DNA from: an uncultured Prochlorococcus sp.
GTDB taxonomy: Bacteria > Cyanobacteriota > Cyanobacteriia > PCC-6307 > Cyanobiaceae
Assembly (NCBI GenBank): GCA_902594875.1
Contig: CACJNU010000006.1
Location: forward strand, 1-64,000
Direction of reading: 5' to 3'
DNA length: 64,000 nucleotides
Below the pieces are notes generated by a model. The model made no database searches. It was not told where the DNA came from and saw nothing but the letters and a program-made list of their open reading frames with translations. A program made the position numbers and the translations under genes. This document shows positions 1-9,214 of this stretch, piece after piece (positions within the stretch are counted from its first letter, which is position 1; the number at the start of each line of letters is the position of its first letter).

Positions 1-316
1 CAGGTCTAAGAATGCCAAATAAGACAGAACTTATTGCATGCGTTCCACTTACAAATTGCATTCTCACAGCTGCCTTTTCAGCAAGAAACAATCTTGCAAA
101 AACCGCATCAATTTTTTCTCTAGATATATCATCATGACCACTACCAGAAGATTGATTGAAATGACTAGTAGAAACTTTTTCTTCCTTAAAAATTGTCAAA
201 ATATTTTCTAATTTCTGGAAAACCTGATTGGACCTTTCTTGGAAAACTTTACTTAAACTCTCTTCGACAGAAAGGACAGCATTTTCAGCCAGTTTATAGT
301 TATTGTTTAGTGTCAT
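1..316 (-). CDS. Methionine gamma-lyase family ('aluminium resistance') protein, N-terminal part, runs off left edge
   Basis: The minus strand encodes 105 residues from an ATG at 316-314 to the window edge with no stop. It reads MTLNNNYKLAENAVLSVEE at the start and contains the motif RLFLAEKAAVRMQFVSGTHA, typical of the N-terminus of the PLP-dependent Met_gamma_lyase family (about 410-430 residues, cystathionine beta-lyase-like fold, historically called aluminium resistance protein). It begins only 3 bp after the stop of the upstream minus-strand gene, so the two look co-transcribed. The C-terminal part of the same family lies on the opposite strand at about 906-1598, which a single intact gene cannot explain. 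The substrate in cyanobacteria is not known to me. Confidence 0.8.
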   Translation of the reverse strand, partial: MTLNNNYKLAENAVLSVEESLSKVFQERSNQVFQKLENILTIFKEEKVSTSHFNQSSGSGHDDISREKIDAVFARLFLAEKAAVRMQFVSGTHAISSVLFGILRP

Positions 317-319
317 TTA

Positions 320-904
320 CTATGAAAACTCATGTTGTTTTTCAGAAGCTAAATTTCTTAATTCTGCAAGGAAAGCGTTAGGCCCCCTACCCTGAAAATA
401 AGAAAGTTTTTTTGAAGTTTCATATAAGTCAAGAAGTTCTCCATCTAATTCTTCTGCCGTATAATCTCTAATTCCTGCTATTACCTCAGCAAAACGTTCT
501 CTACGGGCAGATTTATTCACAGCATATGCTTCCATTACCTGATTTTTACATGATCTCCAAGCCTTATTCTGACAAAAATGCACTGAAAGAGCATAACTTA
601 AAGCAGAAGCTTCTTCATCTTCTATGTACCAATCAAAAGATGAAGGTAGAGATTTTAATCCTGAAAATATTTCGAATAACTCGCCGGCCGACAATGGATT
701 ACCAGAATCATTTTTTAGGGGTAATGCAGACTCTTCCAAAGATTTCCATAACTCTGGGTAATCACTTTCAAAACGATCCCTGATTTTTTCTATACCTTGA
801 TCAAGAATCGTATTGACTTGAGCTAAAGCAAGAAAAACTTCGGGGCCTGGCGAAGATAACTTCCCATTCCTAAGATTAGAAATTTGTGAATTATGAACTT
901 TCCC
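320..904 (-). CDS. Conserved hypothetical protein with HTH-like segment, 5' end lost at a junction
   Basis: An open frame of about 194 codons ends with TAG at 322-320. A TTG at 739-737 could be read as a start, but the frame stays open upstream and encodes VHNSQISNLRNGKLSSPGPE and FLALAQVNTILDQG. This resembles a helix-turn-helix/XRE-type segment, so the real gene very probably starts beyond the break near 900-915. The remainder is acidic and helical (DWYIEDEEASALSYALSVHF), with no catalytic motif I recognise. It sits immediately before the methionine-gamma-lyase-family gene. Function unknown; a DNA-binding role is only suggested by the N-terminal pattern. Confidence 0.6.
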   Translation of the reverse strand, partial: GKVHNSQISNLRNGKLSSPGPEVFLALAQVNTILDQGIEKIRDRFESDYPELWKSLEESALPLKNDSGNPLSAGELFEIFSGLKSLPSSFDWYIEDEEASALSYALSVHFCQNKAWRSCKNQVMEAYAVNKSARRERFAEVIAGIRDYTAEELDGELLDLYETSKKLSYFQGRGPNAFLAELRNLASEKQHEFS

Positions 905-905
905 T

Positions 906-1598
906 AAATGTATATGTTTTGTCGATAACTGTTATGGGGAGCTTGTTGAAGATAGTGAACCTATTTCAAAAGGGGCAAATATAATTGCTGGATCATTGAT
1001 TAAAAATTTGGGAGGAACAATTGTTCCTACTGGGGGGTACGTTGCAGGAGATGCAGAGTTGGTTGAGATGGCATGTTCTAGATTAACCTCGCCAGGTATT
1101 GGTTCTTCTGCAGGAATAAATTTTGGATTAGGAAGATTAATTTTGCAGGGTTTGTTTTTAGCACCACAAATTGTTCACGAATCATTAAAAGGTGCTGATA
1201 TGGTTGCAGCAGTCTTTAAAAATTTGGGATTTAAGGTTTTACCAGAGCCAGCAACATATAGATCTGATCTTATTCAGTCAGTAAGATTGAATAATCCTGA
1301 TTTGGTACAAAAAGTTTGTCAATCTTTTCAAAATTCTTCACCAGTAGATTCTTTTCTTAATGTTGTTCCATCATCAATGGATGGATATGATTCAAAATTA
1401 TTAATGGCAGGAGGTACATTTATTGAAGGTAGTACAAGTGAATTTTCTGCTGATGCTCCTCTAAGAGATCCTTACAATATTTTTGTTCAAGGTGGTTCTC
1501 ACATAGCTCACATCAAAATTGCATTAATTCGATTATTATTTGATTTATTAGAGGAAAAATTAATTTCAAAGGATTCTCTACTTCCTTTATCTACTTAA
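906..1598 (+). CDS. Methionine gamma-lyase family ('aluminium resistance') protein, C-terminal part, 5' truncated
   Basis: The plus frame reads from about 906 (ICFVDNCYGELVEDSEP) through SLIKNLGGTIVPTGGYVAGD to a stop at 1598. VDNCYGE is the aspartate region of the PLP fold, and the segment around SLIKNLGG holds the likely PLP-binding lysine. About 230 residues are present, corresponding to roughly residue 200 to the end of the family. The ATG at 996 lies inside the conserved core and is not a credible native start. The gene ends 2 bp before gcvH, in the same direction, so in an intact genome it probably heads a unit with gcvH and gcvP. Residues about 106-200 are absent from the window. Confidence 0.8.
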   Translation, partial: KCICFVDNCYGELVEDSEPISKGANIIAGSLIKNLGGTIVPTGGYVAGDAELVEMACSRLTSPGIGSSAGINFGLGRLILQGLFLAPQIVHESLKGADMVAAVFKNLGFKVLPEPATYRSDLIQSVRLNNPDLVQKVCQSFQNSSPVDSFLNVVPSSMDGYDSKLLMAGGTFIEGSTSEFSADAPLRDPYNIFVQGGSHIAHIKIALIRLLFDLLEEKLISKDSLLPLST

Positions 1599-1600
1599 TC

Positions 1601-1990
1601 ATGTCTTACCAGTTTCCAGACAACCTCAACTATGCTGATACTCATGAATACGTCTTGGAAGAAAACGGATTATTAAAAATTGGAGTTAGTGAATTTGCTA
1701 TAGATCAATTAGGAGATATTGTTTTTGTTGAATTAGCTGATCAAGGGGCGACCTTAGAGAAAGGTGAAACTTTTGGAACAATTGAATCAGTTAAGGCCGT
1801 TGAGGAAGTCTATCTGCCTTTTTCAGGGGAAATAGTATCTGTAAATGAGAGCGTAATTGATAACCCTGAGCTTTTGCAGAACGATCCGATTGGAGACGGT
1901 TGGTTAGTCATTTTAAAACCAGAATCAAAAGCTTCAATTGCTGATTTGATGACTTCTGAGGAATATCAATCAAAGGTTGTACCAAAATAA
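1601..1990 (+). CDS. gcvH: Glycine cleavage system H protein
   Basis: This 129-residue lipoyl carrier shuttles the aminomethyl group between the P, T and L proteins of the glycine cleavage complex, important in photorespiratory glycine breakdown. The lipoylation motif IESVKAVEEVYLP is present with the lipoyl lysine at K65. The start YADTHEYV and the C-terminal NDPIGDGWLVILKP are classic for the family, and the length is typical. It starts 2 bp after the preceding gene and 45 bp before gcvP. gcvT and the L-protein gene are not in the window. Confidence 0.97.
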   Translation: MSYQFPDNLNYADTHEYVLEENGLLKIGVSEFAIDQLGDIVFVELADQGATLEKGETFGTIESVKAVEEVYLPFSGEIVSVNESVIDNPELLQNDPIGDGWLVILKPESKASIADLMTSEEYQSKVVPK

Positions 1991-2035
1991 GGCAAACTTT
2001 TTAAAAAGAGCTATTTTAAAGAAAAATATTTAAAT

Positions 2036-4945
2036 ATGATATCCAAATTTGGGTCCGATTTGTTTATAGACAGGCATCTTGGGTTAGGTGATAATGATGA
2101 AAGAATTATGCTGAACAGGCTTGGGTTTAATAATATTGATCAATTTATAAATCAAGTTATTCCTCAAGATATTCAGCTTAAAGATAAATCTTCAGAAATA
2201 TTGCCCCAAGGTTGTTCAGAAATTGAGGCATTAAATGAATTAGAAGAGATTGCGAAGAAAAATACTAAAATGAGATCACTAATAGGCCTTGGTTATTATG
2301 ACAATCATATGCCTAAAGTAATCCAAAGACATGTTCTTGAAAATCCAAGGTGGTATACGTCTTATACTCCATATCAAGCAGAAATTGCACAAGGAAGATT
2401 AGAAGCTTTATTTAATTTTCAAACTATTGTTTGTGAACTAACAGGATTCCCTGTCGCCAATGCATCTTTGTTAGATGAGGGTACTGCTGCTGCAGAAGCT
2501 ATGGCCATGAGTTTTTCTGCAAGGAAAAATAAATCTTCAAAAGTGTATTTAGTGGAATCAAATGTTTTTGATCATACTTTTAATGTTCTACAAACCAGAG
2601 CAAAACCTTTGGGAATATCTTTAAAACGCTTTACTCAAAGCAACCTTCCTGGTCATGATGATGTTTTTGGAATGTTGTTGCAATTACCTGGTAAAAATGG
2701 GCAATTGTATGATCCCACATTCTTAATATCGCAAGCTCATAGATTAGAAATTATTGTAACGGCATGTATTGATCCGCTGGCACAAGTTTTAATTAAACCA
2801 ATTTCTGAATTTGGTGTTGATGTTGCAGTTGGTAGTATGCAAAGATTTGGTGTTCCAATGGGTTTTGGTGGACCCCATGCAGCATATTTTGCCTGTAGCG
2901 AAAAATATAAAAGGCTGATACCTGGAAGAATTGTTGGGCAAACTCTCTCTAAAAATGGAGAAAAGTCTCTAAGATTAGCATTGCAAACAAGAGAGCAACA
3001 TATTAGAAGGGAAAAGGCCACTAGTAACATTTGTACTGCTCAATCTTTGTTAGCTATAATTTCGTCTTTTTATGCTATTTATCATGGACCTTCTGGATTA
3101 ACGCAAATTGCTAAGAGAATAGTAGAGTTGAGAATAAATTTAGAATCATGTTTAGCTGATTTAGGTTTTGATATTCCTAATGGGATTAGATTTGATAGTG
3201 TTGATGTTTATTCTAGGCATTCCCAGAGGATCCATAATGAAGCTTTAAAAAATGGGTATAACTTAAGAATTTTGCCGTTGGGATCAACTATTGAAAATTC
3301 AACTGGCTTTGGGATCTCTTTAGATGAGCTTAGTAATGAAAAAGAAATCAAAGATATTTTGACTTTCATAGCAAACGTTATAGAAAAAAAAGAAGATTTA
3401 GAGCTTATAAAATTTGATAAAAGATTTCATCTTGAAAGTTTAGCTTTGAGATCCAGTGAATGGATGCAGCAAGATATATTCACGAATTTCCAAAGTGAAA
3501 CGGAATTAATGAGATATATATTCCGACTTGCTGAAAAAGATTTTTCTCTGGTAGATGGAATGATGCCATTAGGAAGCTGTACCATGAAGTTAAATTCTGC
3601 AGCAGAGCTAAATCCAGTTTCTTGGACTAATTTATCTTCTATTCATCCTTTTTCTCCATTAGATCAAACTAAGGGCTACTCAAAAATAATATCTGACTTA
3701 GAAAAATGGATAAGTGATATTGTTGGTTTAAAATCAGTTTCTTTTCAACCAAATGCTGGCTCTCAAGGAGAGTTTGCAGGTTTATTGGCAATAAATTCTT
3801 ATTTCGAATCAAAATGTGAACTGTTAAGAAAAAAATGTTTAATTCCAAAAAGTGCTCATGGAACAAATCCTGCTAGTGCAGTTATGGCAGGTTTTGACGT
3901 GTTAACTGTTGAATGTGATGACGAAGGAAATATTGATTTTCAAGATTTGTCAATCAAGGTCAAGAAATTTGATAACCAAATAGGGGCTCTTATGTTGACT
4001 TATCCCTCTACTCATGGAGTTTTTGAATTACAAATCAGAAAGATATGTGATTTAATTCACTCTGTGGGAGGATTTGTTTATTTAGATGGAGCCAATTTGA
4101 ACGCTCAGGTTGGATTATGTAAACCGGGCAATTATGGTGTTGATGTTTGTCACTTGAATTTACATAAAACATTCTGCATTCCTCATGGAGGTGGTGGTCC
4201 AGGAGTAGGTCCAGTTGCTGTATCAGAAACTTTAAGCCCATTTCTTCCTACTCATTCTTTAATGGATAATAATTTATCTATTAGTTCCAATTATGTATCT
4301 TCTGCCAAGCATGGGAGTGCAAGTATTCTTCCAATAAGTTGGATGTATATTAAAATGGTTGGTCTTAGAGGTTTAAAGAAAGCAACTGCGCATGCAATTT
4401 TATCTGCAAATTATATTGCTCATTCTTTAAAGCATAAATTCAAAATTCTTTACAAAGGAAAAAATAATTTTGTCGCACATGAATGTATTTTAGATTTTAG
4501 GGATTTAAAATCTAAAACTGGTTTGAGTGTAAATGATTTAGCTAAACGATTAATAGATTATAGTTTTCATGCCCCAACTATAAGTTGGCCTGTTCCAGAG
4601 ACGATAATGATAGAGCCTACTGAAAGTGAAAGTTTGGTTGAATTGGATAGATTTTGCGAGGCTATGCTATTGATTGGAGAAGAAATCAGCGAAATAGAAA
4701 AAAATGTTGCACTAAAGAATAATAATGTAATAAGTAACGCTCCCCATACGCTGAAAGAGTTAATAGCTGATAATTGGCATTATCCTTATTCAAAAGAAAA
4801 AGCTTCTTTTCCTTATAAAACTCCAACGTCTATTAAGTTTTGGTCTTCAGTTTCTAGGATCAATAATGCATATGGCGATCGCAATTTAATTTGTTCTTGC
4901 AATGTAAATAAAGGCGAGACTTTCGAAGAAAAAAAATGTGCTTAA
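2036..4945 (+). CDS. gcvP: Glycine dehydrogenase (decarboxylating), P protein
   Basis: A 969-residue PLP enzyme that decarboxylates glycine and passes the aminomethyl group to lipoyl-GcvH. It is the fused single-chain form, as in most cyanobacteria: the N-terminal half includes TPYQAEIAQGRLEALFNFQT and the C-terminal half carries the PLP site HLNLHKTFCIPHGGGGPG with K711 as the Schiff-base lysine. FIDRHLG at the N-terminus and MKLNSAAELNPVSW are further family marks. Length is normal and no frameshift is visible. It follows gcvH and ends in a short hairpin overlapping its stop. Confidence 0.97.
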   Translation: MISKFGSDLFIDRHLGLGDNDERIMLNRLGFNNIDQFINQVIPQDIQLKDKSSEILPQGCSEIEALNELEEIAKKNTKMRSLIGLGYYDNHMPKVIQRHVLENPRWYTSYTPYQAEIAQGRLEALFNFQTIVCELTGFPVANASLLDEGTAAAEAMAMSFSARKNKSSKVYLVESNVFDHTFNVLQTRAKPLGISLKRFTQSNLPGHDDVFGMLLQLPGKNGQLYDPTFLISQAHRLEIIVTACIDPLAQVLIKPISEFGVDVAVGSMQRFGVPMGFGGPHAAYFACSEKYKRLIPGRIVGQTLSKNGEKSLRLALQTREQHIRREKATSNICTAQSLLAIISSFYAIYHGPSGLTQIAKRIVELRINLESCLADLGFDIPNGIRFDSVDVYSRHSQRIHNEALKNGYNLRILPLGSTIENSTGFGISLDELSNEKEIKDILTFIANVIEKKEDLELIKFDKRFHLESLALRSSEWMQQDIFTNFQSETELMRYIFRLAEKDFSLVDGMMPLGSCTMKLNSAAELNPVSWTNLSSIHPFSPLDQTKGYSKIISDLEKWISDIVGLKSVSFQPNAGSQGEFAGLLAINSYFESKCELLRKKCLIPKSAHGTNPASAVMAGFDVLTVECDDEGNIDFQDLSIKVKKFDNQIGALMLTYPSTHGVFELQIRKICDLIHSVGGFVYLDGANLNAQVGLCKPGNYGVDVCHLNLHKTFCIPHGGGGPGVGPVAVSETLSPFLPTHSLMDNNLSISSNYVSSAKHGSASILPISWMYIKMVGLRGLKKATAHAILSANYIAHSLKHKFKILYKGKNNFVAHECILDFRDLKSKTGLSVNDLAKRLIDYSFHAPTISWPVPETIMIEPTESESLVELDRFCEAMLLIGEEISEIEKNVALKNNNVISNAPHTLKELIADNWHYPYSKEKASFPYKTPTSIKFWSSVSRINNAYGDRNLICSCNVNKGETFEEKKCA

Positions 4946-4960
4946 AGGACTAGCGTCCTT
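4945..4960 (+). terminator. Hairpin at the end of gcvP, possible terminator
   Basis: AAGGAC (4945-4950), loop TAGC, GTCCTT (4955-4960) form a perfect 6 bp stem that begins at the last base of the gcvP stop codon. The following bases ATATTTACTT are T-rich but not an uninterrupted T run, so termination efficiency is uncertain. It could equally protect the 3' end of the mRNA. Confidence 0.45.
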
Positions 4961-5074
4961 ATATTTACTTAGTTATTATCAGTGAGAATAAAAATTTAAT
5001 ATTTTCTTATAGAATTTTTTTAAATTTTTTTATTAAAATATTCGAGCATCAAATTTTTTGGGGTATTTGAAGCT

Positions 5075-5323
5075 ATGACCAAAGATTTTAAATCTGGTAA
5101 TGTTAAGCACCTGCCAGTTAAAAACGTAGATTTACCAAATTTTGTCAATAATTTTCCAGGAAATAATTCAAACATTTGTTCCGTTGAGGGAACTAATGTT
5201 ATAAGAGTACCCTTTGGTAAAAAATTTTCAAAGAAAAAAAGGCCTGAAAAAAATCAAAATATCGCTACTTTAATACTTCCTTTAAGTTCGTATAATAATC
5301 CCACTCCTCCACACGTAGCATAA
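5075..5323 (+). CDS. Small hypothetical protein, 82 residues
   Basis: An ATG-started frame of 82 codons fills the space between gcvP and the convergent sqdX. The protein has no membrane segment or signal peptide. It has a basic middle (VPFGKKFSKKKRPEKNQ) and a hydrophobic then proline-rich end (IATLILPLSSYNNPTPPHVA). I recognise no domain and assign no function. Support for its being real is its size relative to the gap, codon use like its neighbours, and the lack of a competing frame. No clear Shine-Dalgarno sequence precedes it, as for most genes here. Confidence 0.55.
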   Translation: MTKDFKSGNVKHLPVKNVDLPNFVNNFPGNNSNICSVEGTNVIRVPFGKKFSKKKRPEKNQNIATLILPLSSYNNPTPPHVA

Positions 5324-5335
5324 TTAAGATAAATT

Positions 5336-6469
5336 TTAATCTATTTCTTTGAGAGTATCTATATAATATTTTTGCAGTTGTAATGTTGCTTGATTCCAAT
5401 CCCATTTTTCAGCTTCGTTTCGTGCCTCTTTTCTCATAACTTCTCTTTTACCTTCATTCTCTAGAATTTTTTTTGTCGCTTCAATCAAACTTTGTTCCCC
5501 ATTATCTTTCTCATCAGGATCATATAAACAACCATTAATCCCATCGCTAATAATATCTGGAATCCCCCCCTTGTTGGCTCCAATAACTGGACATCCTGCT
5601 GCCATTGCTTCTAGTAAAACTAAACCAAGTGTTTCTGTACTAGATGGAAATAAAAATATATCTCCAGAGGCATAGGCGCTAGCAAGTTCATCGCCAGATA
5701 AGTATCCTATGAAATTAGTCTTTGTATTTTCGAAGATTTTTTCAAGCTGGTTTCTATATGGTCCGTCACCTACAAGTGCTAGGCAAGCATTAGGAATACT
5801 TTCTAAGACTGGTTTAATTCTCTCAATTTGTTTTTCTGCCGATAATCTTCCTACATAAATTAATAAGTAATTAGCATCGTTGTATTCCCCAAATAATTTT
5901 TTTCTCATTTTCTCACTTCTCAAATCTGGTCTGAAACTTAAAGTATCTACTCCCCTTTGCCATAGAGCAGTCCTTTGAATACCTTTATCTTTTAACTCAT
6001 TGACCATAGCGGTGGAAGTACATAAATTTAACAAGGCTTGATTATGAGCTGCTTTAAGTAATTCCCACAAAAGTGGTTCTAACATACCCATACCGTAATG
6101 TTCCAGATATTTTGGAAGATGAGTATGGTAACTGGCAATTAAAGGAATATTATTAGTTTTCGCTAACCATATGCCACCTAAGCCAAGTACGGCTGGGTTA
6201 ACAACATGTATCAAATCTGGGTTAAATTTTTCTAACTGATCTGAGACTGCAGGACCCGGTAAACCAAGCTTCAACTCCGGGTATAAGGGTAATGGCATTG
6301 CAGCAACTCCAACTACAGTTGCACCCATATATGATTCTGGACATCCTTCTGGACAAAAAATTATAACTTCATTACCATTTTTTATTAAAAATTCAATCGT
6401 TTTAGTCAGTCTTGTGACTATGCCATCAACTTTAGGTAAAAAAGTTTCGGTAAACAATGCAATTTTCAC
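5336..6469 (-). CDS. sqdX: Sulfolipid synthase, sulfoquinovosyl diacylglycerol glycosyltransferase
   Basis: A 377-residue GT-B family 4 glycosyltransferase. It starts MKIALFTETFLPKVDGIVTR and has the C-terminal nucleotide-sugar motif ETLGLVLLEAMAAGCPVIG. Adjacent to sqdB and 27 bp downstream of it on the same strand, it is best read as SqdX, which transfers sulfoquinovose from UDP-sulfoquinovose to diacylglycerol to make SQDG at the membrane. Sulfolipid replaces phospholipid in open-ocean picocyanobacteria and so saves phosphorus (known biology). The specific function rests mainly on context; the fold assignment is secure. Confidence 0.92.
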   Translation of the reverse strand: MKIALFTETFLPKVDGIVTRLTKTIEFLIKNGNEVIIFCPEGCPESYMGATVVGVAAMPLPLYPELKLGLPGPAVSDQLEKFNPDLIHVVNPAVLGLGGIWLAKTNNIPLIASYHTHLPKYLEHYGMGMLEPLLWELLKAAHNQALLNLCTSTAMVNELKDKGIQRTALWQRGVDTLSFRPDLRSEKMRKKLFGEYNDANYLLIYVGRLSAEKQIERIKPVLESIPNACLALVGDGPYRNQLEKIFENTKTNFIGYLSGDELASAYASGDIFLFPSSTETLGLVLLEAMAAGCPVIGANKGGIPDIISDGINGCLYDPDEKDNGEQSLIEATKKILENEGKREVMRKEARNEAEKWDWNQATLQLQKYYIDTLKEID

Positions 6470-8656: not shown

Positions 8657-9214
8657 TTAGAATCCCTTATCTTTAATACCTTTATAAGGTTTATAATTAT
8701 TTCTTTTTTCTAACTCCTTACTTTTTTTAATTGCTGTTTTGTTTTTTGGATCTATCACCAAAACCTTTTGATAAGTTTCATACGCTAAGTCGTACTCAAG
8801 TAAACGCTGTTGTGCTGATGCGAGGTTATTTAGGGCTATAGGATATTCTGGAAGTGATTTTATTGCAGAGTTATAGTGTTTAATTGCTTTCTTAAATTCA
8901 TTTTGAGCAGCATAAGAAAATCCTAAAGCATTATTTATTATCGCCTTGGCTTCATCAGGTTCATTTTCATAATTTTCAATTGCTTTTAAAAAAGTTTTTG
9001 TAGCTTCAGAATATAATCTTTTTTTTATCTGAATAGACCCAAATTCATATAATTCTGTAGCTTGAGTCAGAGATTCTAAACCTTGTTGCTCGAATTTTAC
9101 TAAATTTAATTCTTCACTTCTTGTTTTTAGAAATTGTCTGAATACAAAAATAGAAATTATTATTAATACAACAAAAAGAATTATTAAATAAGATTGGAAG
9201 GAAGATATTTCCAT
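8657..9214 (-). CDS. Membrane-anchored TPR-repeat protein
   Basis: 185 residues. A single hydrophobic N-terminal segment (about residues 8-27, [20 protein letters not shown]) is followed by tetratricopeptide repeats from about residue 60 to 165 (for example [20 protein letters not shown]). The topology suggests a thylakoid- or plasma-membrane-tethered scaffold with a cytoplasmic or lumenal TPR domain. The gene lies between rplT (37 bp upstream) and thiG (2 bp downstream). The binding partner cannot be inferred from the sequence. Confidence 0.8.

Follow-up and report, generated by a model that had tools for sequence, protein, structure and literature searches.

The first 909 bp of the window (the whole 64,000-bp stretch of DNA analyzed here) are inverted relative to the usual genome order, and the joint at positions 903 to 909 is in all likelihood a fold-back chimera that was formed by phi29 multiple displacement amplification (MDA) of single-cell DNA and carried to the contig end by the assembler. 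The inverted arrangement is real sequence and most likely no feature of the genome; MDA fold-back is a known, ordinary phenomenon. The window comprises bases 1 to 64000 of a 68,378-bp contig (C6) from a Prochlorococcus assembly (G000; 41 contigs, 1.43 Mb, completeness of 89.5%) and, since it starts at base 1 of that contig, its first base is a contig end. From the contig number, the completeness and the relatives of this assembly, we infer that it originates from a single cell amplified by MDA: the titles of 69 of the 80 related records carry AG- names, which we take to denote single-cell genomes, and some titles say MAG. Against the closed genome of a relative (G012), C6 falls into two pieces, with bases 1 to 909 mapping to the plus strand at 1587605 to 1588513 and bases 903 to 68378 mapping, unbroken, to the minus strand at 1587323 to 1519834. 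The left end of the contig is the inverted block, and the sequence from 903 onward has the ordinary arrangement.

Table 1. Genes and landmarks at the left end of the window
Feature	Position in window	Strand	Details
Inverted block	1..909	-	In relatives, ~282-1190 bp upstream of window position 903 (blastn to 80 loci)
Met_gamma_lyase-family (PF06838) gene, first 105 codons, cut by contig end	1..316	-	
Upstream neighbor gene, 5' end absent	320..909	-	232 aa in MIT 9314
Joint, in all likelihood chimeric	903..909		Window reads CCTAAAT
Met_gamma_lyase-family gene, last 230 codons, usual place before gcvH	906..1598	+	
gcvH, full length, ordinary	1601..1990	+	TIGR00527, 132.1 bits (cut-off, 115.85)
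gcvP, full length, ordinary	2036..4945	+	TIGR00461, 1230.9 bits (cut-off, 859.2)

A reading of this DNA made from the sequence alone had proposed that one lyase-family gene was split and partly inverted here, and the Pfam matches bear this out. The minus-strand open reading frame at 316-2 (105 amino acids [aa], leaving the contig) matched positions 4 to 96 of the Met_gamma_lyase profile (E value of 1.7e-27), and plus-strand positions 906 to 1595 matched profile positions 192 to 401 (3.2e-88); in isolate MIT 9314, the gene is intact (positions 4311 to 5603 of locus L066) and encodes 430 aa. None of the three window fragments was matched by an NCBIfam model, whereas Pfam did match both lyase pieces. 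The upstream neighbor, located at L066 3594 to 4292 in MIT 9314, is inverted in the window and has lost approximately its first 41 codons there, in line with the earlier description of an inverted neighbor with a cut 5' end. Neither Pfam nor NCBIfam gave a match for this gene (window 320-907, minus strand; L066 3594-4292). Its position beside the lyase gene is kept in relatives.

Loci of relatives were collected by a protein scan of genome contigs, with the best 80 of 190 retained; one of these (L062) starts within the right arm, leaving 79 loci that cover both arms, and in another (L023) the left arm is present only up to window position 769. By blastn, the left arm lay on the strand opposite to the right arm in 79/79 loci, all of which showed the order neighbor, lyase, gcvH. 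In locus L049, for example, window positions 1 to 909 align inverted to 4626-3718, and positions 903 to 2100 align forward from 4908. The points joined in the window are thus ~1190 bp apart in relatives, close to the 1.2 kb upstream proposed from the sequence alone, and a stretch of ~281 bp (L049 4627-4907; a few bases more or fewer in some loci), corresponding to about residues 106 to 199 of the lyase, separates the block from the right arm. Among 32 relatives picked for few contigs and a completeness of at least 90%, the whole 10.6-kb region was present in one piece and collinear in every case, with the two genes kept in order. The proposed synteny of neighbor, lyase and gcvH therefore held in all 79 loci as well as in these 32 genomes, and the inverted order was seen in none of them. 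When a 161-bp query spanning the joint was searched against 266 genomes of the genus, 216 matched, including the genome under study. Among the matches listed, only that genome matched from end to end (E value of 5.8e-80). Of the 265 other genomes, 215 matched, at best with 1.6e-35 over one arm only, and all matches listed from them were likewise confined to one arm. One genome (G230) does carry both arms on the same strand, as the result of a different fold-back that is discussed below.

The two arms overlap at 903 to 909, within the interval (900 to 915) in which the junction had been placed beforehand. All seven positions of the window sequence, CCTAAAT, agree with the left-arm reference. 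The right-arm reference reads CCTAACT in G012, L049, L066, L003 and L006 and CCCAACT in L041; the former agrees with the window at 6/7 positions, five of them contiguous (CCTAA), followed by a mismatch and one further match. If only bases uninterrupted from the 3' end are counted, the match is a single nucleotide, a count made against the commonest sequence among relatives, from which the cell's own unrearranged bases may differ. A loose, unanchored motif located the right-arm site in 72/80 relatives, with CCTAACT in 47, CCTAAAT in 2 and further variants in the others. When 200,000 inverted joints were drawn at random from G012, 0.34% (a fraction of 0.0034) reached at least 6/7 agreement in such a 7-base block, a block that had been picked after the joint was seen, and 0.96% had an exact overlap of at least 5. 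A repeat search of window positions 1 to 3000 listed no repeat at the joint, and a repeat-mediated inversion was set aside because the arms overlap by just 5 to 7 nucleotides.

Published MDA chimeras follow the same pattern. In the study of Lasken and Stockwell (2007; PMC1855051), 406 of 475 chimeras were inverted, and they mostly joined segments less than 10 kb apart at complementarities of 2 to 21 nucleotides; the window, too, joins opposite strands less than 10 kb (~1190 bp) apart at a short match. Those chimeras, however, carried an intervening deletion and were observed in reads, whereas the joint described here lies in an assembled contig that ends before the 281 bp is reached. In human MDA data (PMC5372508), chimeric overlaps peak at 7 nucleotides, with >95% within 3 to 13 nucleotides, and the preferred distance is 80 to 280 nucleotides within a 5-kb range; the 1190 bp of the window exceeds this preferred distance yet lies inside the 5-kb range. 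A further comparison comes from single cells of Prochlorococcus MED4 (PMC2731171), which yielded approximately one chimera in every 10 kb of reads, 80% of the chimeras joining regions less than 10 kb apart and 80% being inversions, while seven chimeric contigs were found in each of two libraries. The window comes from the same genus, and a few of the MED4 chimeras survived into contigs. A difference is that the MED4 errors were proven with the strain's own reference genome, whereas the window is judged against relatives only.

Such a joint could have arisen as follows. A displaced 3' end, most likely that of the left-arm strand ending in ...CCTAAAT-3' within the neighbor gene, would have paired with a similar sequence that lies ~1190 bp away in the lyase gene, carried by a displaced strand close by, and its extension would have joined opposite strands of one neighborhood. 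As base 908 follows the left arm, it was probably the left-arm strand that supplied the priming 3' end and thus acted as the primer. As the assembly lacks the DNA farther to the left, there was probably nothing but chimeric molecules with which to extend the contig, which would then stop 909 bp into them. The cell itself very probably has the order neighbor, lyase, gcvH, gcvP, with a lyase gene that is presumably intact. A chimera is supported by the fact that the arrangement is seen in this assembly alone, where the contig ends and unassembled DNA begins, and by distance and inverted orientation, which fit published MDA chimeras. Speaking against it are the single-nucleotide match at the strict 3' end, the distance of 1190 bp, outside the 80 to 280 nucleotides preferred in the human data (PMC5372508), the presence in G230, too, of both arms on one strand with a break 11 bp away and the fact that the window would read identically after a simple inversion of 1190 bp.

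Indeed, flipping positions 3718 to 4907 of the relatives in place yields the order of the window, with the 281 bp falling past the contig end. We nevertheless consider it highly unlikely that this cell or strain carries a real chromosomal inversion of ~1190 bp that breaks the neighbor and lyase genes. Such an inversion would be private (0/79 loci, and no spanning match among those listed for 215 other genomes), would disrupt two genes that 32/32 of the picked few-contig relatives keep in order, and would have only 5 to 7 nucleotides of inverted match at its ends. Its breakpoint would also happen to lie 909 bp from where the contig stops, and the same assembly has a second private fold-back at the end of another contig. 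That a genuine, cell-private inversion of 1.2 kb inactivated a methionine-gamma-lyase-like enzyme together with its neighbor in the wild cell, at an inverted match of 5 to 7 nucleotides, is improbable to the same degree. The preference for an MDA chimera over a real inversion, already voiced in the sequence-only reading, is thus upheld by the private joint, the contig end, the short match and the further fold-backs described below.

The position of the joint at a contig end would also suit a pure assembler misjoin, with no physical molecule containing the joint, as contig ends are the least reliable parts of assemblies. Yet the arms share at most 7 nucleotides and the k-mers or overlaps used by assemblers are far longer; it is therefore very probable that there were reads across the joint, and we regard a pure misjoin as extremely unlikely. 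The inverted order itself, together with the fold-back end in G230 only 11 bp away, might bring to mind a programmed or phase-variable segment whose inversion switches the lyase or its neighbor. However, the breakpoints contain no inverted repeat longer than 5 to 7 nucleotides and the other state was found in 0/79 relatives; moreover, the partner site in G230 (4187 in L066 coordinates) differs from that in the window (4908), and the two are therefore not the same switch. The likelihood of such a segment is close to negligible.

When L049 positions 1 to 4907, comprising 3.7 kb of upstream sequence, the block and the 281 bp, were searched against the genome under study (40 of 91 first-look candidates scored), the sole match was window 1-909. 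Among the candidates scored, neither the 281 bp between the arms nor the 3.7 kb upstream had a match elsewhere in the assembly, and the far breakpoint of an inversion, at which the far end of the block would be joined to the flank, was not found in this assembly, in which the region is unassembled. Among the contig ends and small contigs placed on G012, the next end to the left belongs to C34 and lies at position 1598201, ~9.7 kb away. These results qualify two parts of the sequence-only reading. Its "inverted copy" is inverted, as the alignment to relatives confirms, but that it is a copy is not borne out, the DNA of the block having been found only once in the assembly. Likewise, the residues that it gave as missing from the window (106 to 200) do correspond to sequence not found in the assembly (281 bp, residues 106 to 199); however, because the contig ends there, this absence proves no deletion, and these residues may simply lie beyond the contig end.

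Further fold-backs were found in the same assembly and in those of relatives. The assembly's 82 contig ends were all mapped to G012, as 3-kb terminal pieces or, for small contigs, as whole contigs, and at 58 of them the match reached to within 100 bp of the end. Two of these 58 showed an abutting inverted joint: the start of C6 and the end of C14, where the last 164 bp (L123 2837-3000) are inverted. The alignments at the C14 joint overlap by 12 positions, with 6 contiguous bases common to both arms. A 401-bp query across this joint matched 105 of 121 genomes, including the one under study; among the matches listed, the best of the 104 other genomes (9.5e-109) was restricted to one half, and other genomes for which the two halves were listed on one contig had them on opposite strands. 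The inverted end of C14 is probably another amplification chimera. Comparison of the 79 loci with L066 revealed inverted pieces in two: L058 (AG-418-G23), with positions 1 to 463 inverted at a contig end and 4 shared bases at the joint, and L003 (AG-402-N17), with an inverted piece at ~8697-8912, the joint lying near 8.7 kb of the locus and ~2.6 kb from the contig end. In G230, contig C59 (L130 1-259) starts with a fold-back whose joint, at 251 to 259, has 9 shared bases; in L066 coordinates, it runs inverted from 3965 to 3707 and then continues from 4187 onward. C14, L058, L003 and the G230 contig thus resemble the window in that the inverted block lies at or close to the end of a contig, and the fold-back sites of all five are different.

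The break in G230 lies within the neighbor gene, 11 bp from that in the window (3707 versus 3718 in L066 coordinates). A recurrent breakpoint was considered and rejected, G230 being a different fold-back with another partner site, and the closeness of the two breaks is most simply read as coincidence or a mild local priming preference. A 201-bp query around the break region shared by the two matched 214 of 266 genomes. Among the matches listed, the genome under study had the weakest best E value (8e-37), and G230 (1.3e-46) was among the weak ones, as were, among others, G024, G026, G034, G143, G263 and G264; G024 and G026 are divergent in this region (74 to 75%).

The block being most likely a flipped amplification product, the apparently broken gene is in all likelihood a laboratory artifact rather than biology, and the finding matters solely as quality control. 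The lyase is to be recorded as unassembled and not as a pseudogene, and genes cut at the ends of amplified single-cell contigs should not be called lost or rearranged. By the same token, the ends of AG-418-G23 (L058), AG-402-N17 (L003) and G230 (L130) are unfit for claims about gene order or pseudogenes.

No inverted self-match of at least 50 bp was found in the 3-kb ends of the larger contigs or in C19 to C41 and C6, all of which were searched whole. Three further contigs of the assembly (C19, C20 and C26) have pieces on both strands of G012. C20 (L129) contains interleaved pieces of two G012 loci; its positions 1 to 3327 are, however, unbroken in G155 and G152 and therefore look like real genomic-island variation. 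C19 (L128) and C26 (L136) match the two strands of G012 in short, scattered stretches; the DNA of these contigs is largely absent from G012 and is probably island DNA.
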